Positions 15,167-55,864 of a DNA stretch of 64,000 nucleotides are shown here, piece by piece. Below the pieces are notes generated by a model that was not told the DNA's origin, did no database searches, and saw nothing but the letters and a program-made list of their open reading frames with translations. Origin of the DNA: an uncultured Roseburia sp. (lineage in GTDB: Bacteria; Bacillota; Clostridia; Lachnospirales; Lachnospiraceae); assembly GCA_945787015.1 (NCBI GenBank), contig CALZGM010000001.1:1-64000 (forward strand), in the 5' to 3' direction. Position 1 is the first letter of the stretch. Each line of letters begins with the position of its first letter. Both the position numbers and the translations under genes were made by a program.

Positions 15167-15182
15167 CAGGTTTTTGTGGAAA
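15161..15182. promoter_or_regulatory. Palindrome between divergent promoters, possible operator
   Basis: TTTCCACA (15161-15168) and TGTGGAAA (15175-15182) form an 8-bp inverted repeat with a 6-bp gap. It covers the -35 region of the leftward phosphofructokinase promoter and lies about 25 bp upstream of the rightward extended -10 (TG-T-TATGAT, 15207-15215) of the flavoprotein operon, so one regulator could act on both. Confidence 0.5.
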
Positions 15183-15206
15183 AGAATGGAAGTAGAAATA
15201 GAAAAG

Positions 15207-15215
15207 TGTTATGAT
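15207..15215 (+). promoter_or_regulatory. Extended -10 promoter of the flavoprotein-aconitase X operon
   Basis: TG-T-TATGAT is an extended -10 element; the -35 region 17 bp upstream (TGGAAG) is poor, which suggests dependence on an activator or on the extended motif. The gene starts 48 bp downstream after GAGGGGGAAAGA. Confidence 0.45.
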
Positions 15216-15262
15216 GAGAAAGGAGTTTATGATACAAAAAAAGAAAATGAGGGGGAAAGAAC

Positions 15263-17317
15263 ATGAATCAAAAATACGAGGCATTGTTTACTCCATGGAA
15301 GATCGGAAATGTGGAGATAAAAAACAGAATCGTACTTTGCCCGATGGGAGGAACTTCGCTATTTGGCTGGATGGAACCAAACCATTTTGACAAAGAGGCT
15401 GCAAAGTTTTTCCTGGAACGGGCAAACAATAATGTCGGCCTGATTATTCCCGGAATTGCACCGCTTAAGGATACGCTAGGCGGTAGATGGCTCTGGCAGA
15501 ATAAGAAGATGTTTGAGGAATTGAAACCTTATATGGAAGAAATTCATAAAACCGGAGCAAAGCTTTTTGTACAGCTGACTGCCGGTATGGGACGTTCCTG
15601 GGCAATTACCGACCATGTAATGCTCTTACATAAAAATCCGGCTCTCCGGGCTATCGCAAAGCCAATCCTTGATACTTCTTACCAACTGGCCAGCCCAAGT
15701 GAACTACCGGCACGCTGGGCACCTGAAATTACGACCCGTGCACTTACAGTAGAGGAAATTGAAGAGATTGTAGAGGCATTTGCGAAAACAGCGAAGCTTT
15801 GTAAAGAAGCCGGTGTAGATGGAGTAGAAGTACATGCGGTTCATGAAGGATATCTGTTGGACCAGTTTACCTTAAAATATACAAACAAACGAACAGACGA
15901 GTACGGTGGTTCGTTTGAAAACCGTTATCGTTTTGCAACGGAGGTTGTTACCGCAATTAAGGCTGCCTGTGGGGAGGACTATCCGGTATCACTTCGTTAT
16001 TCCGTAGAATCAAAGGTAAAAGATTTTGGCGTGGGTGCAGTCCCGGGAGAAACTTACACGGAAATCGGCCGTGACATGGAGGAAAGTGAAAAGGCAGTAA
16101 AATATCTGCAGGATGCAGGATATGATATGTTAAATGCCGATAACGGAACCTATGATTCCTGGTATTGGGCACATCCGCCACAGTATATGCCGCAGAACTG
16201 CAATCTGGAAGATGTGGCACACATTAAGCAGTTTGTAGACATTCCGGTAGTCTGCGCAGGACGTATGGACCCGGAGGCCGGAGCAAAGGCAGTTGCGGAA
16301 GGAAGGATTGACGGAGTAGGTGTTGCAAGACAGTTCTTAGCAGATGGTGCGTGGGTAACCAAATTGATGGAGGACCGTTTAGAAGAAATACGTCCATGTA
16401 TCTGTTGCCATAATGCCTGCTTTAACTTCTCACACTATAAGGGTGTGGCAAATGCACAGGACTTTGGAGACACCTGCCATCTGGCACGATGCGCGCTGGT
16501 ACCAAGTGTCATGCAGTCTGATAAGTATAAAATCGTTCCTGCAAAGAAACCGAAAAAAATCGCTGTGATCGGTGGCGGTATCGGTGGTATGGAAGCGGCA
16601 ATTGTCCTTGCAAAACGCGGGCATAGTGTAACGCTTTATGAAAAGGACAGCGGGCTTGGCGGTATTTTCATTGCTGCTGCGGCTCCTTCCTTCAAGGAAA
16701 AAGACCGTGATTTGATTCGCTGGTATGAGCGGGAAATCACACGCTATCCAATCGAAATAAAATTAAACACAGAAGTAAAAGAACTTGCTTCTTTAGATGC
16801 AGAAGAGGTCATTATTGCAACAGGTGCAACCGCGAGAAAGATTCCGGTAAAAGGCGCTGAATATGCGATGGATGCGACAGAATATCTGCTTGGAACAAAG
16901 ACGGTTGGCGAAAACGTAACCATTATCGGCGGTGGTCTGACCGGTTGTGAAATTGCATACGATTTGTATTTACAGGGCAAGAAACCGACCATTATTGAAA
17001 TGAAAGACGACTTAATCGCAGTAAAGGGAATCTGCCTTGCAAACACAAGCTTCCTGCGTGATTTCTTTGCGGCAAATAAGGTCCCTGTTTATCTGGAAAC
17101 AAAGCTTGGCGAGGTATTAGAGGATGGCGTGATTGCAATCGACAAAGCCGGCAATTCCTTCAAAATTAATGCAGACAGCGTGATTCTTTCCGTAGGCTAC
17201 AATCCTGCACCACTTGCACCAAAAGGAAAGCATGTGCATATCGTTGGCGATGCGAATAAGGTTGGAAACTTACGTACCGTAATCTGGAATGCATGGGATG
17301 TTGCCATGAAACTATAA
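15263..17317 (+). CDS. Old Yellow Enzyme-type flavin/iron-sulfur oxidoreductase (2-enoate reductase family)
   Basis: Large multi-cofactor reductase of 684 residues, laid out like 2-enoate and 2,4-dienoyl-CoA reductases and the bile-acid enzymes BaiCD/BaiH. Residues 1-370 are an FMN-binding TIM barrel (NRIVLCPMGG at the start, VEVHAVHEGYLLDQF in the middle). Cysteines 379, 382, 386 and 405 can hold a 4Fe-4S cluster. From about 430 there is an FAD/NAD(P) module with GGGIGGMEAA, then GGGLTGCEIA near 555. Such enzymes move electrons from NAD(P)H to a C=C bond beside a carboxylate or carbonyl. The substrate is unknown. It is first in an apparent operon with aconitase X, a dehydratase, whose product might be its substrate. 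Confidence 0.88.
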   Translation: MNQKYEALFTPWKIGNVEIKNRIVLCPMGGTSLFGWMEPNHFDKEAAKFFLERANNNVGLIIPGIAPLKDTLGGRWLWQNKKMFEELKPYMEEIHKTGAKLFVQLTAGMGRSWAITDHVMLLHKNPALRAIAKPILDTSYQLASPSELPARWAPEITTRALTVEEIEEIVEAFAKTAKLCKEAGVDGVEVHAVHEGYLLDQFTLKYTNKRTDEYGGSFENRYRFATEVVTAIKAACGEDYPVSLRYSVESKVKDFGVGAVPGETYTEIGRDMEESEKAVKYLQDAGYDMLNADNGTYDSWYWAHPPQYMPQNCNLEDVAHIKQFVDIPVVCAGRMDPEAGAKAVAEGRIDGVGVARQFLADGAWVTKLMEDRLEEIRPCICCHNACFNFSHYKGVANAQDFGDTCHLARCALVPSVMQSDKYKIVPAKKPKKIAVIGGGIGGMEAAIVLAKRGHSVTLYEKDSGLGGIFIAAAAPSFKEKDRDLIRWYEREITRYPIEIKLNTEVKELASLDAEEVIIATGATARKIPVKGAEYAMDATEYLLGTKTVGENVTIIGGGLTGCEIAYDLYLQGKKPTIIEMKDDLIAVKGICLANTSFLRDFFAANKVPVYLETKLGEVLEDGVIAIDKAGNSFKINADSVILSVGYNPAPLAPKGKHVHIVGDANKVGNLRTVIWNAWDVAMKL

Positions 17318-40304: not shown

Positions 40305-41876
40305 ATGGCAGATTCGATATACCGGTTTCTAAAACGGTATTATAAAACATTACTTCTTGTAGACACTTTAATTATTTTGTGTTATGCACATTTGGTATTA
40401 TGCGGTAATATTCGAATTGACACAGAAGTATTGATAAACAACCCGGGATATTCCATGGGATGGGATTCCTTTGGAAGATATGGTTTGGTATTTTTGAAAC
40501 ATATCTTGGGACTGAGTACCCACCATACGGTGAAAAGCGGAATTTTGTTTTTGATTTTTTTTACTCTGCAGGCAAATGTTCTTCTTTTTTCCATCTTTTA
40601 TTTTAGCGGTGAGGATGAAAAATATCCTTACTGGATGTTTGGAGCATTATATTGTACCGCTGTTACATGGTATATACAGGCATATTTTTCTCTTCAGCAG
40701 GCAGAGATTGCATGCGCGATGTTAATGGTAGCAGTGGCAGCATTCCTTGCTGTTAAAGCAGCCTTCCTTGATCAAAGATATTTGGGCGGCTTTTTGGCAG
40801 CATGGGTATTACTGCAGAGTGGTTTTAGTACCTATCAGGCTTTTGTTGCCTTTTATATTGCAATCTGTATTTCACTATTTTTGGTGCATATTTGGAAAAT
40901 ATGGAATTGTTGTGGGGCATACGATGAGAAACAGAATCAGAAAACGGTACTTGGTATCGTTAGACTGATTGTTCATTTCTTAATTAGTTATGGTATGTAT
41001 TACCTTATAATGAATCGGTGGTTTAACACTTCCGGTTATGTTAATAATCAGAGCGCGTGGGGGAAGGAACCCATTCTCGACTGTTTCATGTCGATTATAA
41101 AGGCAATAGTTAAGGTTGTAATCATGTGGGGACCTCAGAATTTTTCGTTCTATACAGCCGGAGCATGCATGTTACTGATCATAGCGGTGATAGTTTGGAA
41201 AGATGGGGTGCTCCATCATCAGTTTCGAACGATATTGTTTTCACTTACACTTCTCGGACTGATGATTACCCCTTTTTTGTTGAATATTTATACAGGCTCC
41301 ATGGGAGTTTCGAGAGCGCAGTTTGCATTGCCGGTAGTGGCTGCGTTTATGGCGGCATTTTCTGTTTGCGCGTTAAAACAACTAAAACCAATGTGGAAGA
41401 AGACACTACGTGGCATTACAGCACTGGTTGTTTTCTTCATTTGCGGTCAAATTGCATTATGTGTGAATATGGCGCTGACAGATGATATCAGAAATGAATA
41501 TGACCTTCGAAAAGCCGAACTGGTGGTGGAAGAGCTATTAGACGTTTGTGATGATTGCTATCCGGAAAAACCGGTGGCTTTTGTGGGAAAACAGGAGGCT
41601 GATTTACCATGCTGGTGTCTGCGTGCAGAGATGTACGGAATGTCCTTTTTTGAGTGGGATTACTCACCGGAGCATCCGATGGAAGCAGGCTTTCGTATCA
41701 GGGGGCTGATACAGGCACATACCGGAATCAGGTTAAATGGAAATTTGACAGAGCTACAGTCACAAAAAGCAGAGGAACTGGCGGAAGGGATGACTGATTT
41801 CCCGGAAGAGGGCTCTGTTTTAGCGCTGGATGATATGATTATTGTGAGGCTTTCTGAAATTGAGAAAGCTGATTAA
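40305..41876 (+). CDS. Membrane glucosyltransferase-like protein (Glucos_trans_II / GtrII family)
   Basis: Integral membrane protein of 523 residues with about ten to eleven membrane segments. It resembles the Glucos_trans_II family, whose members move a glucosyl group from a lipid carrier to a surface polysaccharide on the outer face (GtrII-like). Suggestive features are DTEVLINNPGYSMGWDSFGRYG near the N-terminus and LLQSGFSTYQAFVAFYIAI in the middle, both typical. A soluble domain forms the last 110 residues. It opens the surface polysaccharide locus, three bases after ptsH. Acceptor and sugar are unknown. Confidence 0.78.
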   Translation: MADSIYRFLKRYYKTLLLVDTLIILCYAHLVLCGNIRIDTEVLINNPGYSMGWDSFGRYGLVFLKHILGLSTHHTVKSGILFLIFFTLQANVLLFSIFYFSGEDEKYPYWMFGALYCTAVTWYIQAYFSLQQAEIACAMLMVAVAAFLAVKAAFLDQRYLGGFLAAWVLLQSGFSTYQAFVAFYIAICISLFLVHIWKIWNCCGAYDEKQNQKTVLGIVRLIVHFLISYGMYYLIMNRWFNTSGYVNNQSAWGKEPILDCFMSIIKAIVKVVIMWGPQNFSFYTAGACMLLIIAVIVWKDGVLHHQFRTILFSLTLLGLMITPFLLNIYTGSMGVSRAQFALPVVAAFMAAFSVCALKQLKPMWKKTLRGITALVVFFICGQIALCVNMALTDDIRNEYDLRKAELVVEELLDVCDDCYPEKPVAFVGKQEADLPCWCLRAEMYGMSFFEWDYSPEHPMEAGFRIRGLIQAHTGIRLNGNLTELQSQKAEELAEGMTDFPEEGSVLALDDMIIVRLSEIEKAD

Positions 41877-41908
41877 TGAATAAAAAGTATGAAAGGGAAG
41901 AATTTAAA

Positions 41909-42778
41909 ATGAAGAAAATTCTTGTGACCGGATGCAATGGCCAGTTGGGCAGAGCAATCCGAAAAGAATATGAACAGGATGGAGTGACATTTATCAATAC
42001 AGATGTGGCCATGAGCGAAGGCGTAATCGCGCTTGACATTACCGATATTAATCAGGTGATGGCACTGGTAAAGAGAGAAAAACCGGATGTCATTATCAAT
42101 TGTGCGGCGCATACCAATGTAGATGCCTGTGAGACCCAGTGGGATCTGGCATATCAGATTAACGCCATCGGACCGAGAAATTTAAGCATCGCAGCAAATG
42201 CAGTTGATGCAAAAATGATTCACGTTTCAACCGACTATGTGTTTGAAGGCAATGGAAGCGTACCTTATACGGAATTTGATGAACCAAATCCTGTGAGCGC
42301 CTATGGAAAGACAAAGCTGGAAGGAGAAAAATTCGTAAAAGAATTTGCCAAAAAGCATTTTATTTTCCGTACCGCATGGTTATATGGAGACGGAAAGAAC
42401 TTTGTGAAGACAATGCTTCGCTTGTCAGAGAACCATGAGGAAGTAAACGTCGTATGTGATCAGCTTGGAACACCGACCAGCGCAAAGGAATTGGCAAAAA
42501 TGATTCGTCACCTGGAGGGAACCGAAAACTACGGAACTTTCCATGCAACCTGCGAGGGCTCTACCAACTGGGCCGAATTCACAGAAGAAATTTTTAAGCT
42601 GACAGGAAAGAATACAAAGGTCAACCATGTGACAAGCGAGCAGTATGCACAGATGAATCCGGCTTCCGCAAAACGTCCTGCGTTTTCAATCTTGGAAAAT
42701 TACATGCTAAAGCTGACCAGTGATTATCGAATGGCAGACTGGCATGATGCATTGAAGGAATATTTGAATGAGAATTAA
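41909..42778 (+). CDS. rfbD: dTDP-4-dehydrorhamnose reductase
   Basis: Last step of dTDP-L-rhamnose synthesis, reducing the 4-keto group with NAD(P)H. The 289-residue short-chain reductase has ILVTGCNGQLGRAIRKE (Rossmann), INCAAHTNVDACE, the active-site STDYVFEG and YGKTKLEGE (Tyr-Lys pair), and YGDGKNFVKTML. The frame is open from 41876, but AAGGGAAG at 41892-41899 serves ATG 41909. It is separated from rfbBAC by a glycosyltransferase gene and a promoter, an uncommon order. Its end overlaps the next gene by 11 bp. Confidence 0.93.
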   Translation: MKKILVTGCNGQLGRAIRKEYEQDGVTFINTDVAMSEGVIALDITDINQVMALVKREKPDVIINCAAHTNVDACETQWDLAYQINAIGPRNLSIAANAVDAKMIHVSTDYVFEGNGSVPYTEFDEPNPVSAYGKTKLEGEKFVKEFAKKHFIFRTAWLYGDGKNFVKTMLRLSENHEEVNVVCDQLGTPTSAKELAKMIRHLEGTENYGTFHATCEGSTNWAEFTEEIFKLTGKNTKVNHVTSEQYAQMNPASAKRPAFSILENYMLKLTSDYRMADWHDALKEYLNEN

Positions 42779-44639
42779 TAAATACATGATACAAAAAGGT
42801 CTTATGTGCCTGAAAGAATATGGCATAAAGGAACTTTATATCAGAGCCACGGAAAAACTGCGTTCGCAGAGAATTCCGTATGATAAGTGGTATCAGAAAC
42901 GAAAACTGAAACGTGCAGAGTGGAAAGCGCAAAGAGCAGATTCCGCAACTTGGGAAAACAGACCGATTGTCAGTATCTGTGTCCCCCTTTACAACACGCC
43001 TGAAAAGTACTTGTTTGAGATGATCGATTCGGTAATCAATCAGACTTATACAAATTGGCAGCTCTGTCTGGCGGACGGAAGTCCGGAAGGGGGGCTCGGT
43101 GAAGCGCTAAAAGCGCATTATCCGTCAGAAGAACGAATTACTTACCTGCATCTGGAAAAGAACCGCGGAATTGCCGGAAATACCAATGAAGCCTTTGCAT
43201 TGGCAGAGGGAACATGGATAGGGCTTTTAGACCATGATGATATTCTGGCACCGGAAGCACTGTATGAGTCTTTGGCGGCAACAGGTGTAAATGAAGCAAT
43301 TGCTGGCGTAGTAAAGCATAGAAAACATACCGGAGTAATCGAGGCAGTTTATTCTGATGAAGATAAGATCACAGAGGATTTAAAAGAGCATTTTGACCCT
43401 CATTTTAAACCGGATTATAATATCGACTTACTCTGTACCAATAATTACATCACACATTTCTTTCTGGTGAAACGTGAGATTGTGGAGCGGGTAGGCGGCT
43501 TCCGCAGCCGGTACGATGGTGCACAGGATTTTGATTTTATCTTCCGCTGTACCGATGCTGCAAAGGGCGTCGCCCATGTGCCACGGGTACTCTACCACTG
43601 GAGAACGTCGGCTGGTTCTACGGCAGAAAATCCAAGCAGTAAAATGTATGCTTATGAAGCCGGAAAACTGGCGATTGAAGACCATCTAAAGGCAAAAGGC
43701 ATAAAGGGCGAAGTTTCCTATACGAAAAATCTTGGATTCTACAGAGTAAAGTATGAAGTGGAAAAACAGGATTTGATATCCATTCTGATTCCCAATAAGG
43801 ATCAGGTAAAACTGCTCCAAAACTGTCTGGCGTCTATTGAAAAAAGCACTTATCAAAATTACGAAATCATTATCGTTGAAAATAACAGTAAGCAGGCGGA
43901 AACCTTTACTTATTATGAAACGTTAACCGGACAGACATACCGAAAGGATGAAAAGCTGGAGGGAACCCTTTCAAACGGCAACCGTATTCGTGTGGTGACA
44001 TGGGAAGGGGATTTCAATTATGCAGCAATCAATAATTTTGGCGCTTCCTATGCTAATGGCGAATATTTGCTGCTGCTAAATAATGACATTGAAATCCTCA
44101 CAGAGGATTGGATGGAAGAAATGCTGGGACACTGCCAGAGAGAAGATGTGGCAGCAGTCGGATGTAAGCTATTGTATCCGGACGGAACCATCCAGCATGC
44201 AGGTGTCGGTATTGGTCTTGGTGGTATCGCAAACAGCATGTTTGTTGGTATGGACAGCAAATTCCATGGTTATATGCACCGGGCAAATCTGCAGATGGAT
44301 TACAGTGCAGTGACGGCAGCCTGTATGATGGTGAAACGTGCCATTTATGATAAGGTGGGCGGTTTTACGGAAGAACTGGCGGTGGCATATAATGATGTGG
44401 ATTTATGCTTAAAGATGGGACAGCTTGGATATCACATTGTATATACCCCATACGCATGTGCGTACCACTATGAGTCTAAAACAAGGGGGAAAGAAGATTC
44501 TCCGGAAAAGCAGGCCCGTTTAAAACGCGAATCAGACTATATGCTGCAAAAATGGAGCGAGATTTTTGAATATGGAGACCCGTACTATAATCCGAATTTT
44601 TCAAAAAAGCGCATGGATTATACACTGGACCGACCTTAA
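42768..44639 (+). CDS. Tandem-domain family 2 glycosyltransferase
   Basis: Cytoplasmic glycosyltransferase of 623 residues with two GT-A (family 2) modules. The first (about 60-290) has SICVPLYNTPEKYLFEMIDS and a metal-binding GLLDHDDIL. The second (about 330-570) has SILIPNKDQVKLLQNCLASI, NNDIEIL in the metal site, and HAGVGIGLGG with AAVTAACMMVKR as acceptor region. Such two-domain enzymes often add rhamnose or related sugars and may make two linkages. It overlaps rfbD, so it is likely tied to rhamnose polymer assembly. The exact donor is not readable from sequence. No terminator follows, but a promoter is seen before rfbB. Confidence 0.87.
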   Translation: MRINKYMIQKGLMCLKEYGIKELYIRATEKLRSQRIPYDKWYQKRKLKRAEWKAQRADSATWENRPIVSICVPLYNTPEKYLFEMIDSVINQTYTNWQLCLADGSPEGGLGEALKAHYPSEERITYLHLEKNRGIAGNTNEAFALAEGTWIGLLDHDDILAPEALYESLAATGVNEAIAGVVKHRKHTGVIEAVYSDEDKITEDLKEHFDPHFKPDYNIDLLCTNNYITHFFLVKREIVERVGGFRSRYDGAQDFDFIFRCTDAAKGVAHVPRVLYHWRTSAGSTAENPSSKMYAYEAGKLAIEDHLKAKGIKGEVSYTKNLGFYRVKYEVEKQDLISILIPNKDQVKLLQNCLASIEKSTYQNYEIIIVENNSKQAETFTYYETLTGQTYRKDEKLEGTLSNGNRIRVVTWEGDFNYAAINNFGASYANGEYLLLLNNDIEILTEDWMEEMLGHCQREDVAAVGCKLLYPDGTIQHAGVGIGLGGIANSMFVGMDSKFHGYMHRANLQMDYSAVTAACMMVKRAIYDKVGGFTEELAVAYNDVDLCLKMGQLGYHIVYTPYACAYHYESKTRGKEDSPEKQARLKRESDYMLQKWSEIFEYGDPYYNPNFSKKRMDYTLDRP

Positions 44640-44711: not shown

Positions 44712-45791
44712 ATGAGAACATATTTAGTAACCGGAGGAGCCGGATTTATCGGTTCTAATTACATTCACTACATGTTCCGTAAATATGACAACGAAATCCG
44801 CATTATCAATGTAGACGCATTGACTTATGCAGGAAACCTTGAAAACTTGAAAGATATCGAGAATAGAGAAAATTATACATTTGTTAAGGCGGATATCACT
44901 GATAAGGAAGCCATTGAGAAAATCTTTTCCGAAAACGAAATTGATCGTGTGGTACATTTCGCAGCAGAAAGCCATGTAGACCGCAGTATCCGTAACCCGG
45001 AAGTCTTTGTTAAGACGAATGTTTTAGGTACCGCAGTCATGTTAAACTGTGCAAAAGCAGCCTGGGAACTTCCGGATGGCAGCTTTAAGGAGGACAAGAA
45101 GTTCCTTCACGTGTCTACCGATGAAGTATACGGTTCTCTTCCGGATGATGAGAATGCTTTCTTCTATGAGACCACCCCATATGACCCGCACAGCCCGTAT
45201 TCAGCCAGCAAAGCAAGCTCAGATATGCTGGTAAAGGCATATGTAGATACTTATAAATTCCCTGCAAATATTACAAACTGTTCGAATAATTATGGCCCAT
45301 ATCAGTTCCCTGAAAAACTGATTCCATTAATTATTAACAATGCGTTACAGGGGAAAAAATTACCGGTATATGGTGATGGTAAAAACGTTCGTGACTGGTT
45401 ATATGTAGATGACCATGCGAAGGCAATCGATATGGTACAGGAAAAGGGACGTCTCGGACAGACTTATAATATCGGTGGACATAATGAAAAACAGAATATC
45501 GAGATTATCAATATCATTATTGAAACTTTACAGGAAATGCTTCCGGAAGGAGACCTGCGAAGAGCCTTGGTAAGCAAGGACTTAATCACCTATGTGGAAG
45601 ACCGTAAGGGACATGACAGACGTTATGCAATCGCTCCGGATAAGATTAAGGCTGAGATTGGCTGGGAACCGGAGACTATGTTTAAAGAAGGCATCAAAAA
45701 GACGATTGCCTGGTTCTTTGAACATGAAGAATGGATGAAAAACGTAACCAGTGGCGATTACCAGAAATATTACGAAGAAATGTATCAATAA
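44712..45791 (+). CDS. rfbB: dTDP-glucose 4,6-dehydratase
   Basis: Second step of dTDP-rhamnose synthesis; it makes dTDP-4-keto-6-deoxyglucose. The 359-residue extended short-chain dehydrogenase has VTGGAGFIGSNYIHY, HFAAESHVDRSI, the active-site HVSTDEVYGSL with Thr-Asp-Glu, and YSASKASSDMLVKAY (Tyr and Lys). TNCSNNYGPYQFPEKLIPL and the NVRDWLYVDDH motif are typical of RmlB. AGGAGG precedes ATG. It has its own promoter and is followed by a hairpin without a T-run before rfbA. Confidence 0.96.
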   Translation: MRTYLVTGGAGFIGSNYIHYMFRKYDNEIRIINVDALTYAGNLENLKDIENRENYTFVKADITDKEAIEKIFSENEIDRVVHFAAESHVDRSIRNPEVFVKTNVLGTAVMLNCAKAAWELPDGSFKEDKKFLHVSTDEVYGSLPDDENAFFYETTPYDPHSPYSASKASSDMLVKAYVDTYKFPANITNCSNNYGPYQFPEKLIPLIINNALQGKKLPVYGDGKNVRDWLYVDDHAKAIDMVQEKGRLGQTYNIGGHNEKQNIEIINIIIETLQEMLPEGDLRRALVSKDLITYVEDRKGHDRRYAIAPDKIKAEIGWEPETMFKEGIKKTIAWFFEHEEWMKNVTSGDYQKYYEEMYQ

Positions 45792-45882: not shown

Positions 45883-46761
45883 ATGAAAGGTATTATTTTA
45901 GCCGGAGGCTCCGGCACGCGCTTATATCCGCTCACAAAGGCAATCTCAAAGCAGATTATGCCGGTTTATGACAAACCAATGATTTACTATCCGTTATCCA
46001 CCTTGATGTTAGCGGGAATCCGAGAGGTATTAATCATTTCTACACCGAGGGATTTACCGGTGTTCAAAGACTTATTTGGAGATGGCTCCCAGCTTGGCAT
46101 GCACTTTGAATATGCCATTCAGGAACAACCGAGAGGGTTGGCAGATGCATTTATTATCGGGGAGAAATTTATTGGAAGCGATGCAGTGGCTTTAGTGCTT
46201 GGAGATAATATTTTCTATGGACAGAGCTTTTCAAGAGTCTTAAGAGATGTCGCTGCCCGTACAGAAAACGGGAAGGGAGCAACTATTTTCGGCTACTATG
46301 TAAGAGACCCGAGAGAATACGGCGTGGTAGAGTTTGATGAGAACGGAAAAGCATTATCCATTGAAGAGAAGCCGGAACATCCGAAGTCCAATTATGCAGT
46401 ACCGGGCCTTTATTTCTATGACAATGATGTCGTAGAGATTGCCAAAAATGTAAAGCCGTCTGCCCGTGGTGAAATCGAAATTACAAGCATTAATAATGAG
46501 TACTTAAATCGTGGCACCTTAAGTGTAGAGACACTTGGACGTGGTTTTGCATGGTTAGATACCGGAAATCATGACATGCTCCTTGCAGCGGCAGATTTTG
46601 TATCCGCTTTCCAGAAGCGTCAGGGACTTTACATTTCCTGCATCGAGGAAATCGCATATAAGCGTGGATTTATTGACAAAGGGCAGCTGATAGAACTGGC
46701 ACAGCCTTTATTAAAGACTGATTATGGCAAATATCTGATGGAAGTAGCAGAGGGATTATAA
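45883..46761 (+). CDS. rfbA: Glucose-1-phosphate thymidylyltransferase
   Basis: First step of dTDP-rhamnose synthesis, joining glucose 1-phosphate and dTTP. The 292-residue nucleotidyltransferase has [16 protein letters not shown] (nucleotide loop), [29 protein letters not shown] (metal site), [20 protein letters not shown] and [14 protein letters not shown], all RmlA signatures. Its glucose 1-phosphate may come from the mutase at 10865. AAAGGAAAT precedes ATG, and rfbC follows one base after its stop codon. Confidence 0.97.
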
Positions 46762-46762: not shown

Positions 46763-47323
46763 ATGGGAAAACTGACTGTATCAGAAGATTGTAACGGAAT
46801 CAAAGGATTAAAAGTAATTACACCGGAAGTACATGGGGATAACCGTGGATATTTCATAGAAACTTATAATTATAATGATTTTGCTGCGATTGGAATCGAC
46901 TGCCAGTTTGTACAGGATAACCAGTCCGCGTCCAAAAAAGGGGTATTACGCGGCTTACATTCACAAAAGCAGTATCCGCAGGATAAATTAGTACGTGTCA
47001 TTAAGGGCGAAGTATTTGATGTGGCAGTAGATTTACGTAAGGGTTCCGAAACCTATGGAAAATGGTTTGGTGTCTTACTGTCAGAAGAAAACAAAAAGCA
47101 GTTCTTTGTCCCGAAGGGATTTGCACATGGATTCCTTGTGCTTTCTGATTATGCAGAATTCTGCTATAAGGTAACCGATTTCTATCATCCGAATGATGAA
47201 CTGGGAATTATGTGGAATGACCCGGACCTTGGCGTGGAATGGCCGATTCCGGAGGGCATGGAAATCATTTTATCCGAAAAGGATAAGAAACTATTAAGTT
47301 TTAAGGAGCTCGCTAATGTCTAA
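46763..47323 (+). CDS. rfbC: dTDP-4-dehydrorhamnose 3,5-epimerase
   Basis: Third step of dTDP-rhamnose synthesis. The 186-residue cupin has DNRGYFIETYNYNDF, the active-site GVLRGLHSQKQYPQDKLVRV with catalytic His, VFDVAVDLRKGSETYGKW and FFVPKGFAHGFLVLSD, all RmlC marks. Translation is tightly coupled to rfbA (gap of one base), and its end overlaps wzm by 8 bp, which ties precursor supply to export. Confidence 0.96.
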   Translation: MGKLTVSEDCNGIKGLKVITPEVHGDNRGYFIETYNYNDFAAIGIDCQFVQDNQSASKKGVLRGLHSQKQYPQDKLVRVIKGEVFDVAVDLRKGSETYGKWFGVLLSEENKKQFFVPKGFAHGFLVLSDYAEFCYKVTDFYHPNDELGIMWNDPDLGVEWPIPEGMEIILSEKDKKLLSFKELANV

Positions 47324-48128
47324 AAAGAAAGAGAGTAAACCATTTTTATTAGATATATGGGAAAGCCGCAGTTTGATCTTTCGATTGGCAGGGACGGATT
47401 TTAAAGCAAAATACGCAGGCTCTTATTTTGGAATCATCTGGGCGTTTGTACAGCCGGTCATAACGGTACTGATTTATATGATTATTTTTGGCGCAGGGCT
47501 GAAAATGACTCCGACGGAAACAGAGTATCCGTTTTTGCTGTATTTGATTGCAGGTATTGTGCCATGGTTTTTCTTTGTGGATGCATGGCAGAACGCGTCA
47601 AATTGTCTGGTGGAATATAGCTATCTGGTAAAAAAGATGGTGTTTAAAATCAGTATTTTACCGGTAGTAAAGGTGTTTTCATCCCTGTTTGTGCACCTTT
47701 TCCTTGTGGCAGTCGCCTTTTTGATTTTTGCAGGCTCAGGAAGATTACCGGGGATTACGATGCTGCAGCTTTTGTATTATATGTTTTGTGAAATCTGTCT
47801 GATTTTGGCATTATCTTACCTGACAGCATCCATTACGCCATTTTTTAAGGATATGATGCAATTGTTGAATATCTGCACACAGCTTTTAATGTGGCTGACA
47901 CCGATTATGTGGGATGACGGCTTTTGGCCGGAATGGATGATGCGGATTTTTAGACTGAATCCGATGTATTATATCGTAAATGGCTATCGTGATTGCTATA
48001 TGCATGGTGACTGGGTATGGCAGGACATGGGAATGACACTCTATTTCTGGGGATTTGTTTTGATAGTAGGCTTTATCAGTATCAAAATATTCCGGGAAAT
48101 GAAGGATTTCTTTGCCGACCACTTATAG
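47316..48128 (+). CDS. wzm: Polysaccharide ABC exporter permease (Wzm/TagG type)
   Basis: Membrane half of an ABC-2 exporter that moves a finished, lipid-linked polysaccharide across the membrane. 270 residues with about six membrane segments. ESRSLIFRLAGTDFKAKYAGSYFGIIWAFVQP near the N-terminus is the amphipathic region of this family, and LNPMYYIVNGYRDCYMHGDW near the end is also typical. It overlaps rfbC by 8 bp and is followed by its ATPase 29 bp later. The close link to rhamnose genes suggests a rhamnose-containing polymer. Confidence 0.93.
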   Translation: MSKKKESKPFLLDIWESRSLIFRLAGTDFKAKYAGSYFGIIWAFVQPVITVLIYMIIFGAGLKMTPTETEYPFLLYLIAGIVPWFFFVDAWQNASNCLVEYSYLVKKMVFKISILPVVKVFSSLFVHLFLVAVAFLIFAGSGRLPGITMLQLLYYMFCEICLILALSYLTASITPFFKDMMQLLNICTQLLMWLTPIMWDDGFWPEWMMRIFRLNPMYYIVNGYRDCYMHGDWVWQDMGMTLYFWGFVLIVGFISIKIFREMKDFFADHL

Positions 48129-48157: not shown

Positions 48158-49435
48158 ATGCGGGAAAAAGTAATTGAGATCAAAGATATCGTAAAAACAT
48201 ATAAGCTTTATAATAAACCGGAAGATTTTGTGAAAGAAAAATTGTGCCTGGGACTTAAGAAGTTCTACCGGCCGCACAATGCACTGGATGGAATTAATCT
48301 GGATGTCTACAAAGGGGAATGTATCGGTATTATCGGAACCAACGGTTCTGGAAAATCGACCCTTTTGAAACTGATTACCGGAGTCTCTACCCAGACAAGC
48401 GGGGAAATCACGGTAAAGGGAAAAATCAGTGCGCTGCTGGAACTGGGAGCAGGCTTTAAAATGGAACTTACCGGTATGGAGAATATCTATTTAAACGGAA
48501 CCATTCTTGGATATACGAAAGAAGAGATGGACGAGCGTGTGCAGTCTATCGTCGATTTTGCGGAGATTGGTGAGTATATTAATCAGCCGGTAAGAAATTA
48601 TTCCAGCGGTATGTTTGCGCGCCTTGCCTTTGCGGTTGCCATCAATGTGGAACCGGATATTCTGATTGTAGACGAGGCGCTCAGCGTAGGAGATATTTTC
48701 TTCCAGTCAAAATGTTATCAGAAGTTTATGAGCTTTAAAGAAGCCGGAAAAACGATTTTATTTGTATCCCACGATTTGGGAAGTGTCATCAAATATTGCG
48801 ACAGAACTCTGTTGATTCATAAAGGAAAACAGATTATGGTGGGAAATTCCGCCGACGTTGTCAATGCCTATAAAAAGATTCTGGTAAATCAGTATGATGA
48901 CGGAAAAGGAACCATCGCCAAAGAAGATAAAAAAATATCGATTACCAGCATTGGTAGTGATGCCTGCTGGAAAGACAGTATGGTGAATAATCCGAATGCA
49001 TTAGAATACGGAAATGGCGTGGCGAACATCATTGATTATGCAATCGTTGATGACCAGGGAAATGTCGGCTCCTCCATATACAAAGGAAAAGAATTTGAAG
49101 TTCGCATGAAGGTTGAATTCTACCAGCCGGTAGACAACCCGATTTTTGCATATACCATAAAAGATATCAAAGGAACGGAAGTCAGCGGAACCAATACCAT
49201 GCTAGAAGGAAGAAACTTAGAACATGTGGATGCGGGACAGATTGTAACGATATCCTTCCGACAGAACATGAGCTTACAGGGTGGTGACTACCTGCTTGCA
49301 TTGGGATGTACCGGTTATCCGGAAGGCGAATTTACGGTATATAGCAGATTATATGACGTATGCAATATTCAAGTCATATCAGACAAAAATACAATCGGTT
49401 ATGTGGATTTGAATGCAGATATCACCTATCTGTAA
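48158..49435 (+). CDS. wzt: Polysaccharide ABC exporter ATPase with C-terminal sugar-binding domain (Wzt type)
   Basis: ATPase of the exporter. About 425 residues. The N-terminal domain (1-245) has Walker A GTNGSGKSTLL, signature YSSGMFARLAFAVA and Walker B ILIVDEALSVGD. From about 290 a beta-sandwich resembles the Wzt C-terminal domain, which in E. coli O8/O9a reads the modified end of the glycan before export. Its marks are YKGKEFEVRMKVEFYQPVDN and LQGGDYLLALGCTGY. A longer frame opens at 48017 inside wzm; AAGCAGGAA supports ATG 48158. A methyltransferase-kinase-like gene follows 25 bp later, matching the chain-end recognition idea. Confidence 0.92.
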   Translation: MREKVIEIKDIVKTYKLYNKPEDFVKEKLCLGLKKFYRPHNALDGINLDVYKGECIGIIGTNGSGKSTLLKLITGVSTQTSGEITVKGKISALLELGAGFKMELTGMENIYLNGTILGYTKEEMDERVQSIVDFAEIGEYINQPVRNYSSGMFARLAFAVAINVEPDILIVDEALSVGDIFFQSKCYQKFMSFKEAGKTILFVSHDLGSVIKYCDRTLLIHKGKQIMVGNSADVVNAYKKILVNQYDDGKGTIAKEDKKISITSIGSDACWKDSMVNNPNALEYGNGVANIIDYAIVDDQGNVGSSIYKGKEFEVRMKVEFYQPVDNPIFAYTIKDIKGTEVSGTNTMLEGRNLEHVDAGQIVTISFRQNMSLQGGDYLLALGCTGYPEGEFTVYSRLYDVCNIQVISDKNTIGYVDLNADITYL

Positions 49436-49460
49436 TAATTTAGAAAAAGGAACGGAAGTT

Positions 49461-51242
49461 ATGGTTGAAAAAATCGGACAGGTAGTCATGAATTATGACT
49501 ATTACAGCGGAACAGATTTATACAGCGATGGTGATATCGAGGATACACTGCTTGAGATTGTAAAAAATCATGAGAAATGCGAATTTCCGGAGATCATTGT
49601 GGAATCCAAATCATGGCCGATTCTTTACCATCTGTCAGAAGTTCGTACGAATATTTTAAACTGGTATCCTTTTGAAAAAGATGCGCATGTATTAGAAGTA
49701 GGAGCCGGATGCGGTGCGATTACGGGTGCGATTGCAGAAAAGGTAGAAAAAGTAACCGCAGTAGATTTATCGAAGCGCAGAAGCCTGATTAATGCGTACC
49801 GTAACAAAGAAAAAGACAATATTGAAATTATGGTGGGTAATTTTAATGATATTGCAGCAGGCTTGACAGAAAAGTTTGATTATGTGACCTTAATCGGGGT
49901 TTTGGAATATGGGGAATGCTATATTCCGGGAGAAGATGCCTACCATACTTTTTTGAAAAAAATTGCAGGTTTATTAAAACCGGGCGGAAAAGTGCTGATT
50001 GCCATTGAAAATCAGCTGGGATTAAAATATTTTGCGGGATGCAGGGAAGACCATGTAGGAAAGTATTTCGAAGGGATTGAAGGCTATCGCACAACCACAG
50101 GTGTGAAGACTTTTTCCAGAAAAGTACTGCGAACCCTCTTGGAAGAAAGCGGATATGAGGCCATTCAGTTTGCTTATCCGTATCCGGATTATAAACTGCC
50201 GACGACCATATACTCGGATGCGTTTCTGCCGGTAAAAGGGGAACTGGTCGATAACATGAGAAACTTTGATGCGGACCGAATGATTTTATTTGAAGAAACA
50301 AAGGTTTGGGATACGCTCATGGATGCCGGATTATTTGCGGACTTTTCCAATTCCTTTTTTGTGGAAGCAGCAAATCCGGACCGGGAATCCGATGTATCAG
50401 AGAAAAACATGCAAAAGACTCTGTTTGCAAAATGCTCAGTAGAACGAAAAGAAAACTATAAGATTATCACCCGTATTTTTGAAGAAAACGGGCAAAAGAT
50501 GGTAGAGAAAACTGCCGTAGGAGAAAAGGCAAAAGCACATGTGGAACGTATGCTTGCATTTTCAAAAAACAGCCCTTATACAATGGATAAGGTACAGCCG
50601 GTGCCTTGTGAAAAAGTAGGGGATGGAAGGGTGCGTTTCCCATATGTGGATGGACAGCGCCTGGATAAAATCATTGATGAAGCAGTAAAGCAGAAGAAAT
50701 GGGATGTGGTTTGGAAGAATGTAATCCTCTTAAAAAACATCATCATGAATGTCAGAGAAAAAGAAAGCTTTCATGCAACGGAAGCTTTTTGCGAAATCTT
50801 TGGTGAGGTGCCCGAGTTAGAGGGATATGAGGCTGCAAGAAATGTCAGCCTGGATATGGTATCTGCAAACATCGTGTTATCCGATGCCATCCATATTCTT
50901 GATTATGAGTGGACCTTTGACTTTGCCGTTCCGCTAAAGTTTATCTTATACAGAAGTATTTTACTGAATGGAACACTCAATGTGATTCCGGCAGAGAAAA
51001 AGGAATATCTAATGCAGATGGTTGGTATTTCACCAAAAGAGTGCGAGATATTTTTGCAGATGGAGATTGCGTTCCAAACGTTTGTAACAGGTGTTTCACT
51101 GAATAATTTATATCCCGAAATGCCAACAAAGCATACGGTTGTGAAAGAAGAAAATTATCAAGAGAAACCGAGAAGAAGCTTGCTTCGCCGTGCAGCGGGA
51201 AAAGTGAAGCGAACCGCTCTTTCGGTTTTGAGAAGAGGATAA
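49461..51242 (+). CDS. Methyltransferase with C-terminal kinase-like domain, WbdD-like chain terminator candidate
   Basis: 593 residues in two parts. About 50-250 is a class I SAM methyltransferase: HVLEVGAGCGAITGAIA (motif I), VTAVDLSKRR, LIGVLEYGECYIPGE and LLKPGGKVLIAIENQLG. The C-terminal half shows features of a kinase-like (APH-type) fold: KMVEKTAVGEKA (possible ATP lysine), VSLDMVSANIVL with Asp465-x4-Asn470, and ILDYEW with Asp481-Glu483, like HGDxxxxN...DWE. WbdD of E. coli O9a has the same order, methyltransferase then kinase, and caps the glycan so that Wzt accepts it. The link to wzt here supports that role, but kinase activity is inferred. The frame opens at 49413; AAAGGAACGGAAG selects ATG 49461. 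Confidence 0.75.
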   Translation: MVEKIGQVVMNYDYYSGTDLYSDGDIEDTLLEIVKNHEKCEFPEIIVESKSWPILYHLSEVRTNILNWYPFEKDAHVLEVGAGCGAITGAIAEKVEKVTAVDLSKRRSLINAYRNKEKDNIEIMVGNFNDIAAGLTEKFDYVTLIGVLEYGECYIPGEDAYHTFLKKIAGLLKPGGKVLIAIENQLGLKYFAGCREDHVGKYFEGIEGYRTTTGVKTFSRKVLRTLLEESGYEAIQFAYPYPDYKLPTTIYSDAFLPVKGELVDNMRNFDADRMILFEETKVWDTLMDAGLFADFSNSFFVEAANPDRESDVSEKNMQKTLFAKCSVERKENYKIITRIFEENGQKMVEKTAVGEKAKAHVERMLAFSKNSPYTMDKVQPVPCEKVGDGRVRFPYVDGQRLDKIIDEAVKQKKWDVVWKNVILLKNIIMNVREKESFHATEAFCEIFGEVPELEGYEAARNVSLDMVSANIVLSDAIHILDYEWTFDFAVPLKFILYRSILLNGTLNVIPAEKKEYLMQMVGISPKECEIFLQMEIAFQTFVTGVSLNNLYPEMPTKHTVVKEENYQEKPRRSLLRRAAGKVKRTALSVLRRG

Positions 51243-51245: not shown

Positions 51246-52217
51246 ATGGATGTATCAATTGTAATTCCTGTCAAAAATGGCGGTGAGTTATTGGATCGCG
51301 TATTGAAACGAATTTTTGAGCAGAAGACCCAGTTTCAATATGAAGTGATCTGTGTGGATTCCGGTTCCACAGATGACTCCTTGGAAATCATAAAAAAATA
51401 TCCGTGTCAATTGTATGAGATTCAACCACAGGAGTTTGGACATGGGAAAACCAGAAATTATGGCGCTGGTAAAGGGACAGGGGAATTTATCGTGTTCCTT
51501 ACACAGGATGCTCTCCCGGTAAATGATCGGTGGCTAGAAAACTTTATTTGTGCTATGAAGACCGATGAAGAAGCAGCAGGCGGATTTGGAAAACATCTTC
51601 CGTATCCGGGTTGTAATGTGCTGGATGCAAGAGATATCAATCTGCATTTTAAAGGGTTTGGCGAAGAAACGACGGTGCATTGGATAGAGGATAGGGCGCG
51701 ATATGACACAGAAGAAGGGTACCGCCATTTCCTGGCATTCTTTTCCGATAACAATTCCTGCTTAAGAAGAAGTGTATGGGAAAAATATCCGTATCCGGAT
51801 GTGAACTTTTCCGAAGACCAGATATGGATGAAACAAATGATGGAATTAGGATATAAACGGGTATACTGTCCGGATGCAGCAGTTTATCATTCCCATAATT
51901 ATCCATTAAAAACCTATTTCAAACGATACTATGATGAGTATAAGGGGATTTACCAGATCCATCAGTATCGGATGTTTAAAAGTGTCCCTAGGATGATATA
52001 CGGAATCCTTCGTATTACGAAGGCAGATTTCTGTTATATCTGGGGCAGATCCAATCAGATAGAACACAAATTATACTGGACCTGGTATGCAGCAGTCCGA
52101 AACAGCTTCCGCTGCATCGCAGGGTATATCGCAGGCTGCTATGAGGGCTATTCGGATCGGAAAAAGGCATTTTTCGACCGGCATATTTCCCAGCAGCATG
52201 ACCAGATTCACCAATAA
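51246..52217 (+). CDS. Family 2 glycosyltransferase, rhamnosyltransferase-like
   Basis: Cytoplasmic GT-A enzyme of 323 residues. The nucleotide-sugar fold shows VSIVIPVKNGGELLDRVL, VDSGSTDDSLEII, the EFGHGKTRNYGA motif and FLTQDALPVNDRW, the metal region in the TQDA form seen in RfbF-like rhamnosyltransferases. FSDNNSCLRRSVWEKYPY and FSEDQIWMKQMMELG form the acceptor side. It starts three bases after the preceding stop codon, so it is coupled to it. Together with dTDP-rhamnose synthesis upstream, L-rhamnose is the probable donor sugar. Confidence 0.87.
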   Translation: MDVSIVIPVKNGGELLDRVLKRIFEQKTQFQYEVICVDSGSTDDSLEIIKKYPCQLYEIQPQEFGHGKTRNYGAGKGTGEFIVFLTQDALPVNDRWLENFICAMKTDEEAAGGFGKHLPYPGCNVLDARDINLHFKGFGEETTVHWIEDRARYDTEEGYRHFLAFFSDNNSCLRRSVWEKYPYPDVNFSEDQIWMKQMMELGYKRVYCPDAAVYHSHNYPLKTYFKRYYDEYKGIYQIHQYRMFKSVPRMIYGILRITKADFCYIWGRSNQIEHKLYWTWYAAVRNSFRCIAGYIAGCYEGYSDRKKAFFDRHISQQHDQIHQ

Positions 52218-52235
52218 AGCAAAGTGAGAGAACAG

Positions 52236-53474
52236 ATGGCAGTCAAAGAATTTGTAAAACAACATCTTATCAATCCTGCACGTATGGACAGTCAGGGAAA
52301 CATTCTCTGGGACCAGCGGGTAGCCGGATTCGGAGGAATGAATCTTTATGATAAATTCCGTTTTGTCATGCGGCAGGAAAAAAAGCCTTTTGATAAAGAA
52401 GCTTATGAAAGAGTAAAAGGTGGGGAGAAAATCATCAACTGGATTATTCCGGAGATGGGATTTTCTTCCGGTGGTCATATCAATATTTTTCGTTTTGTCA
52501 TGATGCTTCAGAAAGCGGGATTTAAAAACCGTATCTATATCATCAATCCGCTCGCCTTTCATACAGCGGACCAATGCAGGGCATTTTTAAAGAAAAATTA
52601 TGTGCTGGATTTAGAGGAAATCGAGGTGTCGATTGATGTGAATGAGATGGAGTTTGCGCATGCTACCATCGCGACATCCTGGCAGACCGCTTATACACTC
52701 AGGGATTTTGATAATACAATTAGTAAATTTTATTTTGTGCAGGATTTTGAACCCTACTTCTTTGCGGTCGGGTCTGAATATGCGTTTGCTGAGAATACTT
52801 ATAAATTTGGCTTTCGAGGGCTTACTGCAGGGGATTGGTTAAAGGAGAAGCTGCATGAAGAGTACGGTATGGAAACAGACAGCTTTTTGTTTTCTTATGA
52901 CCACAAGCTCTATACACCGGGAGAGAAACGAGATTCCGTACCAAGAGTCTTTTTCTATGCCAGACCGGTAACGGAGCGCCGTAATTTTGAACTGGGTCTT
53001 TTGGCGTTAAACGAAATAGCACGAAGAAAACCGGATACAGAGGTGATTTTTGCAGGGTGGGATGTCAGAAATTATAATATACCGTTTCGCCACAAAAATC
53101 TCGGAAGCGTCAGACAGGACAAGCTGGCAGATTTATATGCACAGTGTGATATGTGTCTGGTATTATCAGGAACCAATCTGTCACTTTTGCCACTTGAGAT
53201 TATGGCATCCAATTCCGTTGCCGTATGCACGAAGGGTGCGAACAGTGAGTGGCTTGTAAATGAAGAAAATGCGATTCTGGTAGATTTTGACCCGGATGAT
53301 ATTGCAGACAAGATTTGCTATTATTTTGAACACCGGGAAGAACTATCAGAGGTTCGCAGGCGCGGCATGGAGTTTGCAAATGTGACAAACTGGGAAGCGG
53401 AAGGCGAAAAGGTTCGAATCGCAATTGAAAAAGGAATAGAAGAAGATGAGAAAAATATTAGTACTCGGTGGTAA
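52236..53474 (+). CDS. WsaF-like rhamnosyltransferase
   Basis: GT-B glycosyltransferase of about 412 residues resembling WsaF, the beta-1,2-rhamnosyltransferase of Geobacillus S-layer glycan synthesis. The N-terminal half has INWIIPEMGFSSGGHINIFRFVMML and YFVQDFEPYFFAVGSEYAFAENTY. The C-terminal half has VFFYARPVTERRNFELGLLA and LSLLPLEIMASNSVAVCTKG, the donor-binding region. The frame also opens at GTG 52224, but the GTGAGAG stretch is better read as the ribosome site for ATG 52236. The next gene overlaps its end by 29 bp. Confidence 0.85.
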   Translation: MAVKEFVKQHLINPARMDSQGNILWDQRVAGFGGMNLYDKFRFVMRQEKKPFDKEAYERVKGGEKIINWIIPEMGFSSGGHINIFRFVMMLQKAGFKNRIYIINPLAFHTADQCRAFLKKNYVLDLEEIEVSIDVNEMEFAHATIATSWQTAYTLRDFDNTISKFYFVQDFEPYFFAVGSEYAFAENTYKFGFRGLTAGDWLKEKLHEEYGMETDSFLFSYDHKLYTPGEKRDSVPRVFFYARPVTERRNFELGLLALNEIARRKPDTEVIFAGWDVRNYNIPFRHKNLGSVRQDKLADLYAQCDMCLVLSGTNLSLLPLEIMASNSVAVCTKGANSEWLVNEENAILVDFDPDDIADKICYYFEHREELSEVRRRGMEFANVTNWEAEGEKVRIAIEKGIEEDEKNISTRW

Positions 53475-54357: not shown

Positions 54358-54996
54358 ATGGAAATAAAACAGGTTTATAGCAGAAGAACCCGTAGAGAAA
54401 AAATATTATCCGCAGGCGTGCTGGTCATGGGTGTTTTATCGATGCTCCTACTGGCGGCCAGATGCAGCAAAATGCCTCAGACGGCAGGTATTGTACCGAC
54501 CCGGATACAAAATGCAGTCCTATGGTTATTTGCAGAAGATGTGCAGATGACAGCTATGGCAGTTTATCTTGTGGGAGCGTTGCCAACGATTCTCATCAGC
54601 GCAGCTGTTTTAGACGAGATAGGGCAAAAGAAGGGGGAACTGGCGTTACCATTCTATTTTTATCCGGCTGCTTTTATGGTGGAAAAATTATTTTATAACC
54701 CGCTTTCCATTTCCGTATGTTCCTGGATTGTGCTGGTATTGACTTCGTTTTGTCTGTATGAAGTTGTTGTGAAGCAATACAAAATTGGCTGTGGAATAGC
54801 CGCTATCGTGCTGGTTTTGAGTGTACTCGAACATGGGCAGCCGGTCATCGCATTGCTGCGTTACGGGGCATGCCTGATTTTATGTGCGGGAACTGCCGTA
54901 CTTATGAATCGGGCAGGTGTATTAAAAAAGAAAATCTGGTACGCAAGTATTCTGGCACTTTATTTCATCCTGTTTTTGATTGCAGGATTATGTTAG
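54358..54996 (+). CDS. Hypothetical membrane protein 1 of polysaccharide locus
   Basis: Unrecognised protein of 212 residues with about six membrane segments. The N-terminus is basic (KQVYSRRTRREK). Hydrophobic runs follow at about 18-38, 60-85, 95-108, 118-138, 145-165 and 190-210. There is no catalytic motif I can identify. It is the first of three adjacent small membrane proteins, each with its own ribosome site. Together they might form one complex, such as a flippase or polymerase component. It could also be part of a larger ancestral protein, but the intervening stops and ribosome sites argue for separate genes. Confidence 0.65.
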   Translation: MEIKQVYSRRTRREKILSAGVLVMGVLSMLLLAARCSKMPQTAGIVPTRIQNAVLWLFAEDVQMTAMAVYLVGALPTILISAAVLDEIGQKKGELALPFYFYPAAFMVEKLFYNPLSISVCSWIVLVLTSFCLYEVVVKQYKIGCGIAAIVLVLSVLEHGQPVIALLRYGACLILCAGTAVLMNRAGVLKKKIWYASILALYFILFLIAGLC

Positions 54997-55008
54997 AAGG
55001 TAGGAAAA

Positions 55009-55539
55009 ATGAAATTGAAAAGAACAGTTCCGGAAATCCTTACAAATGGATTTATCATTCTGCTGGCGGTACTTTATGCAGCCGGATTTACACCGGAGGC
55101 GGTGGGAGCAGAGGCTTCGTTTCTTGTGATACCGGTGTTCTTCCTTACCTTGTGGAGATTTGGAAAAAGCTTGTTTGCAGAGAAGAAAGAGGCAGTGGTC
55201 TTTGTAATATTTGCAACAGCTCTCTATGGAATGTGCGCATTTCGGGAAGGAAGAGAGGCAGCAACCGGTATCTTTTTAAACAGCAAAGAGGGACTTACTA
55301 TCTTAAGCTGTGTGGTCATGCCGTTAGCCTTTTGTATGATTTTGCAGTGGCTTAAGAAAGTAGAAAGCCGGATAGAAATGTGTGTGATGTCAGCTGCGTT
55401 GGTGTTCGCGGGACAATTTTGCGATGATAAGGGCGGATTTTATATCCTCTTAATGCTGCTTTTGGGAGTGACGGTTAAAATCGTAAGAAAGGGGTATGCT
55501 TATGTCGTTGCGTCTGGCGGTTTTAAAAAGCGTATTTGA
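55009..55539 (+). CDS. Hypothetical membrane protein 2 of polysaccharide locus
   Basis: Unrecognised membrane protein of 176 residues with about five hydrophobic segments (about 12-30, 38-55, 63-80, 98-118 and 128-160). It shows no known motif. A Lys/Arg-rich segment and the C-terminus suggest cytoplasmic loops. It starts 12 bp after membrane protein 1 with GTAGGAAAAATG. Its end overlaps the third gene by about 38 bp, so they are coupled. Confidence 0.65.
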   Translation: MKLKRTVPEILTNGFIILLAVLYAAGFTPEAVGAEASFLVIPVFFLTLWRFGKSLFAEKKEAVVFVIFATALYGMCAFREGREAATGIFLNSKEGLTILSCVVMPLAFCMILQWLKKVESRIEMCVMSAALVFAGQFCDDKGGFYILLMLLLGVTVKIVRKGYAYVVASGGFKKRI

Positions 55540-55864
55540 TTCGTATAACGAACATGCTTTTCCACTGATTTTCTTTTTTATCGCTTTGGTTTATTTCATC
55601 CTAAAAGATAAAAAAGAGCAGAGAAATTTGTTAATATATGAGATTTTTGGTATACTTTTACTAGTGACACCATTTATCGGGAATAAGATAATTACTCTTG
55701 GTGCAGAAAGTGAGGCAAACTGGCCGGTATACGGAATTTTGTGTGTGATTCCGCTGACCGCATATGTAGCCACAGAACTTTTTAGAGAGGCAAAAAACAG
55801 GAAAGAGCAATGTATCTTTGTGTTGCTTTTTTTACTGGTGATACAACTGGGATTTGGTTTTTAA
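55502..55864 (+). CDS. Hypothetical membrane protein 3 of polysaccharide locus
   Basis: Unrecognised protein of about 120 residues with three membrane segments (about 20-35, 45-62 and 75-120). ATG codons lie at 55496 and 55502 in the same frame; AAAGGGG (55488-55494) is one base from the first and seven from the second, so I choose the second. It overlaps membrane protein 2 in another frame, which suggests coupled translation or, less likely, an old frameshift in one longer membrane protein. NEHAFPLIFFFIALVYFILKD resembles no family I know. Confidence 0.55.
   Translation: MSLRLAVLKSVFDSYNEHAFPLIFFFIALVYFILKDKKEQRNLLIYEIFGILLLVTPFIGNKIITLGAESEANWPVYGILCVIPLTAYVATELFREAKNRKEQCIFVLLFLLVIQLGFGF

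Follow-up and report, generated by a model that had tools for sequence, protein, structure and literature searches.

The question raised by this locus is whether a Gram-positive bacterium caps the chains of a rhamnose-containing surface glycan before their export, the logic by which WbdD of E. coli O9a caps the O antigen and the tail of Wzt recognises the cap. The window, the whole stretch of 64,000 nucleotides analysed here, comes from an uncultured Roseburia sp. of the Lachnospiraceae (contig CALZGM010000001.1, positions 1 to 64,000). It carries a wzt gene (48158-49435, +; 425 amino acids) directly followed by a methyltransferase-kinase gene (49461-51242, +; 593 amino acids) with AAGGAA eight bases 5' of its ATG. 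A preliminary description had read the pair as Wzt with a sugar-binding tail beside a WbdD-like enzyme. Our analysis indicates that the 593-residue protein is probably a chain terminator of the type of ORF6 from Klebsiella O7, serving cap-dependent export by Wzm-Wzt; judging by the alignments, its closest studied relative is of the ORF6 type and not WbdD.

The front half of the protein (residues 1-300; 49461-50360, +) contains a methyltransferase domain, matched at about residues 71-235 by Methyltransf_23 (E = 1.3e-11) and by other models, and Y56, E79, G81, G83, and Y150 are invariant across the 55 rows of alignment A3. The second domain (residues ~315-553; 50403-51119, +) is far less readily recognised by sequence. 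No Pfam model reached the cut-off in the C-terminal half (two weak matches, E = 0.015 and 0.25), and no significant match to the kinase half was found among the matches listed in the Pfam, NCBIfam, and PDB sequence searches; a match to the N-lobe of JAK1, although in register, was rejected as not significant (E = 0.18). Among the 75 members of alignment A2, which comprises the window protein and 74 of the 80 relatives introduced below (six were omitted, their kinase match being split in two pieces), one matched APH (E = 0.024) and another Choline_kinase (E = 0.022). Profile comparison gave a probability of 93% to APH, with the APH profile taken from 27 of 30 loci and eight decoy profiles at or below 1.4%, one of them (GtrII) made of a single sequence; the choline kinase profile (7%, E = 0.005) was weaker and was set aside. 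The predicted structure of the kinase part likewise had APH as the best among the matches listed in the structural comparison, with a predicted local distance difference test (pLDDT) score below 50 in model residues 269-298, its C-terminal end. A kinase fold of APH type is therefore supported by the model. The expected order of methyltransferase then kinase and the kinase fold behind it both held, and the Asp-x4-Asn and Asp-x-Glu signatures pointed out in the preliminary description are present as D465-x4-N470 and D481-x-E483. These four residues are invariant in 75/75 rows of A2, and K350, at the place of the beta-3 Lys, is kept in 90% or more.

The O7 ORF6 of Klebsiella pneumoniae is reported to combine a methyltransferase, an unannotated kinase nearest AmiN, an immunoglobulin (Ig)-like domain, a coiled coil, and two modules of glycosyltransferase family 2 (GT2), and to yield a 3-O-methylphosphate on the terminal rhamnose, a reaction lost in D441A (PMC11231755). 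Among the orthologs named in the sections of that report drawn on here, none lies outside the alpha- and gammaproteobacteria, the cyanobacteria, and a single archaeon, and its main text does not contain the words Firmicutes, Lachnospiraceae, or gram-positive (PMC11231755). Of 72,556 plasmid records searched at the protein level, two had a match: P0003, a 1457-residue protein of Pseudomonas asturiensis encoded in the order wzm, wzt, P0003, and P0004 of Citrobacter braakii, encoded beside rffG, rfbA, rfbC, rfbD, wzm, and wzt and matching the window protein at 38% in the methyltransferase half. The order wzm-wzt-terminator of the window is thus also present on Pseudomonas and Citrobacter plasmids. 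The window protein (P0001) and P0003 align at 29% over 560 columns covering both domains (E = 8e-46 in the plasmid search, 3e-59 pairwise), and profile comparison gave a probability of 100% (E = 5.6e-54, 537 columns). The published S-adenosylmethionine (SAM) residues of ORF6, Y28, Y66, G91, G93, E112, and Y158, occur in P0003 as identical letters at identical numbers, and D441 corresponds to D443; because of this coincidence, P0003 was taken as an ORF6 ortholog. Through P0003, the six SAM residues align with Y21, Y56, G81, G83, D102, and Y150 of the window protein, and the counterpart of the catalytic D441 of the APH-like fold is D465.

The likeness to ORF6 extends to the neighbouring polymerase. 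The GT2-GT2 protein of the window (42768-44639, +), a probable rhamnan polymerase with two Glycos_transf_2 stretches, aligns along the C-terminal module of P0003 (residues 843-1452; 39%, 642 columns, E = 7e-135), and the window therefore has terminator and polymerase as two genes, whereas in ORF6 they form one chain. The window protein also differs from ORF6 in having no Ig-like domain and no coiled coil, and its host is Gram-positive and therefore without lipopolysaccharide. As a separate observation on the plasmids, the ORF6-like terminator-polymerase with wzm and wzt occupies 7749-14293 of P. asturiensis pCC1524 (L112), while C. braakii pF217-3 (L113), typed as conjugative, carries an rml-wzm-wzt-methyltransferase-glycosyltransferase cluster at 2207-17046, close to which lie an IS630 transposase gene and a group II intron protein. 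The E. coli genomes searched for the Citrobacter P0004 gene gave no match.

The sugar-binding type of tail attributed to Wzt was confirmed, with Wzt_C (PF14524) matching residues 281-418 (E = 4.7e-43; tail at about 48989-49432) beside ABC_tran (E = 2.4e-23). The best PDB match of the tail was 2r5o (E = 3e-12), presumably the tail of the O9a Wzt, and the alignment text of 2r5o agrees with the E. coli HS Wzt. The window Wzt matches this HS protein, whose annotation places it in the O9 family, at 39% (261 bits) and the Wzt adjoining P0003 at 36% (290 bits).

The association of such tails with the enzyme was followed in 299 Lachnospiraceae genomes from 298 genera (cut-offs E <= 1e-10 for the protein and E <= 1e-5 for the Wzt tail). 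The protein was matched in 156/299 genomes, in 107 of these with an E value no higher than 2e-62, with the qualification that weak matches near E = 1e-10 may be ordinary methyltransferases, and the tail in 152/299. Both occurred together in 146 genomes, the enzyme only in 10, the tail only in 6, and neither in 137 (Fisher p = 4e-64, genomes being treated as independent although related); of the six with the tail alone, G016, G067, and G164 had weak tail matches (1e-7 to 7e-6). As a control, a Wzt-like ATPase was present at E <= 1e-60 in 225/299 genomes, and among these the enzyme was found in 146/152 with a tail vs 3/73 without a tail match, the latter 73 read off the listing by eye. Enzyme and tail are strongly linked across the family. 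Where the best place was listed (130 enzyme genomes), the tail lay directly upstream in 101 (gap -50 to 300); in the other 29 it lay within 6 kb on the same strand (20) or elsewhere (4), or no tail was listed (5). By homology, then, the same gene pair is common across Lachnospiraceae. In a phylum sample, 15/398 genomes had a match at E <= 1e-20, four in Lachnospiraceae and the remaining 11 spread over eight other family codes; several of those outside Lachnospiraceae were listed over the methyltransferase part only. The family sample included one further genome of the same genus as the window, G292; at these cut-offs it matched neither the terminator nor the Wzt tail, and the genus is thus variable for this cluster.

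The architecture of the enzyme was compared in 80 loci, the best of 569 that were confirmed in named genomes, a set biased by having been picked by similarity. Both domains were present in 80/80 relatives, fused in 60 and encoded by adjacent genes in 20 (61 and 20 of 81 with the window), and on a quick methyltransferase tree the state changed at least 10 times, a rough figure because 27/80 inner branches were weakly supported. The GT2-GT2 module was fused in 9/80 relatives and another long module in 4/80; in these four (L034, L036, L037, and L042) the chain that joins such a module to the kinase half totals about 1400 residues, and the L034 protein, the only one of the four scanned, matches RgpF of the rhamnan synthesis family. 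Among the 48 loci with long flanks, wzm and the Wzt tail were each matched in 47 (E <= 1e-15), one or more rml genes in 39, and GT2-GT2 in 36, although the rmlB, rmlD, and GT2 flank matches can include cousins.

Behind the kinase, a region homologous among relatives was present in 76/80 loci by a profile built from 77 of the same tails, with a weak likeness to P0003 (hhalign 74.7%, E = 2.6e-5; hmmsearch E = 0.039); of the four loci without it, L110 has its contig end one residue past the kinase. The window protein was absent among the matches listed for this profile, which covers the position of the ORF6 Ig-like domain. A crude home-made score placed a coiled coil after the kinase in 36/80 relatives and was positive for WbdD, P0003, and P0004, as well as for one false-looking WbdD stretch (139-166). 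It was negative for 19 proteins of the window cluster, eight of which had set the threshold and were negative by construction; the open reading frames (ORFs) at 54358-55864 lay outside this set. The window protein itself ends in a short basic tail (51120-51239, +) with a possible amphipathic membrane helix at its end; in the best 18-residue window of this tail the hydrophobic moment exceeds that of every other one of the 576 in the protein. This value comes from a moment calculation only and is the best of nine tail windows, equalled by 1.6% of shuffles without correction for picking the best window. The C-terminal amphipathic segment may hold the protein at the membrane near the polymerase. 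WbdD is described with an amphipathic membrane helix at its C-terminus (PMC3482155), to which the segment may correspond.

For the substrate, the cap chemistry, the recognition by the tail, and the control of length, we infer the following course. The APH-fold kinase domain would phosphorylate the rhamnose at the non-reducing end of the lipid-linked chain, and the methyltransferase domain would then methylate the terminal phosphate. Once capped, the chain would no longer be extended by the GT2-GT2 polymerase; its end would be bound by the tail of the adjacent Wzt, and Wzm-Wzt would, owing to this binding, export finished chains only.

Part of this course had been ascribed to a homolog of WbdD, a member of the family to which the O9a enzyme of E. 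coli belongs. The domain order, the predicted two-step reaction, and a neighbouring wzt with a tail of the cap-binding type are indeed shared with that system (PMC3482155), as are the neighbours in general and the similarity to an O9-family Wzt. However, against WbdD of E. coli HS (L135), which was recognised by its length of 708 residues and by lying between wzt and wbdA, BLASTP aligned only 98 residues around the SAM motif (E = 0.006), and the 55-row profile matched 77 columns, none of them in the kinase. WbdD itself matches Pfam APH (2.4e-9) and Pkinase, which the 75 members of A2 barely do, and is reported to have a eukaryote-like kinase and a coiled-coil region (PMC3482155). Its absence from the best 50 structural matches of the kinase model is uninformative by itself. 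The kinship proposed in the preliminary description did not hold at the sequence level, and we regard the chance that the protein is a WbdD homolog as close to negligible. The enzyme could also add a methyl-only cap to a sugar hydroxyl, as the O8 WbdD or WsaE of Geobacillus do, with the second half acting as a binding domain or dead kinase. Geobacillus stearothermophilus WsaE is reported to 2-O-methylate the terminal rhamnose, with Wzt predicted to bind the methyl cap (PMC2943079), and it resembles the window in being a Gram-positive rhamnan system with a methyltransferase at the chain end and adjoining wzm-wzt. WsaE differs in methylating rhamnose O-2 directly, and no kinase is named for it in the sections of that report drawn on here (PMC2943079). 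In the window family, the methyltransferase half is better kept than the kinase half (mean distance 0.45 vs 0.70), and the kinase site is imperfect in both proteobacterial proteins, as would suit a methyl-only cap. The invariance of the four kinase residues in A2, the conservation of K350, and the retention of the methyltransferase-kinase pair through the fusions or splits noted above nevertheless make such a cap quite improbable.

Alternatively, the enzyme could modify the glycan with phosphate but with no role in setting length, for example by adding a cyclic or plain phosphate or by acting on an internal or side-chain sugar. No ruler was found in the window cluster, and the S-layer glycan of C. 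difficile SLCT-11 is reported to end in 2,3-cyclophospho-rhamnose, for which its authors suggest O9a-like termination (PMC6254364). That glycan resembles the one proposed here in being Gram-positive, rhamnose-rich, exported by an ATP-binding cassette (ABC) transporter, and phosphorylated on the terminal rhamnose; it differs in that the phosphate is cyclic, and the main text of the report contains neither 'kinase' nor 'methyltransferase' (PMC6254364). The linkage to the Wzt tail and the fusion of the polymerase module in 9/80 loci argue against such a modification, which we consider unlikely. As a separate observation, the SLCT-11 cyclophospho-rhamnose has no assigned enzyme in the sections of that report drawn on here (PMC6254364), and a kinase of the window family is a candidate for the SLCT-11 locus. 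WsaE and SLCT-11 are earlier instances of cap logic in Gram-positives; among open-licence literature judged by titles and abstract starts, we found no paper on the methyltransferase-kinase/Wzt pair in Firmicutes. The enzyme could, finally, be a terminator as proposed, with a Wzt tail that is blind to the cap, the two travelling together as parts of a shared operon type. Distance partial correlations over 69 sets (tail-kinase 0.24, tail-methyltransferase 0.17, ATPase-methyltransferase 0.29, and ATPase-kinase 0.13, permutation p <= 0.006; Wzm 0.06-0.07, p 0.13) are not tail-specific, the ATPase-methyltransferase value being the highest, and tail-terminator coevolution was rejected as an argument. 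However, the pair is rare (3/73) where a related ATPase occurs without a tail match, the best solved relative of the tail is 2r5o, which we take to be the O9a Wzt tail, and tails of the Wzt_C kind have been reported to recognise the cap. A tail that does not read the cap has a small but real chance of being correct.

Besides these correlations, several points weigh against an ORF6-type terminator with cap-dependent export. We know of no glycan structure for the window organism. The link to ORF6 runs through its putative ortholog P0003, identified by residue numbers and not by the ORF6 sequence itself. E112 of ORF6 is D102 in the window protein, a place held by Asp in the window and 6/14 relatives and by Glu in 8/14, and K350 aligns with His in P0003. 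The kinase half of P0004 gives a weak match (E = 0.039) with Glu at the place of D481, and within A2 the kinase half is far diverged, at 20-37% to the window protein. Moreover, no beta domain and no coiled coil were found in the window protein, which ends about 40 residues past the kinase.

The surroundings of the pair bear out the rhamnose setting that had been proposed for it. Family genes of DAC, YbbR, and PGM_PMM precede the glycan cluster, whose order is GtrII, rmlD, GT2-GT2, rmlB, rmlA, rmlC, wzm, wzt, methyltransferase-kinase, GT2, WsaF-like, epimerase, and more. All the following genes lie on the + strand. The first glycan gene encodes a GtrII-like glucosyltransferase (40305-41876; Pfam Glucos_trans_II, E = 5.1e-33) and is followed by rmlD for dTDP-rhamnose synthesis (41876-42778; RmlD_sub_bind, E = 3e-93). 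Downstream of the polymerase lie rmlB (44712-45791; dTDP-glucose 4,6-dehydratase), rmlA (45883-46761; glucose-1-phosphate thymidylyltransferase), and rmlC (46763-47323; 3,5-epimerase), assigned by reading the translations, with matches (E <= 1e-15 for rmlB) in 36/80, 42/80, and 53/80 related loci, respectively. The exporter permease Wzm (47316-48128; ABC2_membrane, E = 2.2e-16) completes the upstream part, and past the terminator come a GT2 glycosyltransferase (51246-52217; Glycos_transf_2, E = 5.2e-21) and a WsaF-like rhamnosyltransferase (52224-53474; WsaF_C, E = 1.8e-17). Further along, three short ORFs stand in a row at 54358-55864, the second of which (55009-55539) matches positions 201-327 of 354 of the DUF6077 profile; they may be one interrupted gene or separate small genes.

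Terminal caps can determine which chains leave the cell and how long they are, and glycan end groups are reported to be easily missed in nuclear magnetic resonance (PMC11127046). Rhamnose-rich wall glycans have been reported for Ruminococcus gnavus, also of the Lachnospiraceae, in a review whose main text mentions neither 'methylphosphate' nor 'Wzt' (PMC12413058), and a methyl-phosphate cap may have been overlooked on known gut rhamnans. It is possible, and we propose it tentatively, that about half of Lachnospiraceae genera bear surface rhamnose glycans with a hidden methyl-phosphate cap made by an O7-type methyltransferase-kinase, and that in some, as here, length is set by a polymerase-detached terminator without a coiled-coil ruler. 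If so, a common gut family would tag its surface glycans with a terminal methyl-phosphate unflagged by the family libraries tried, a single gene would suffice to predict the chemistry of the chain end, and the model of length control by a ruler would become testable in a system without an evident ruler.

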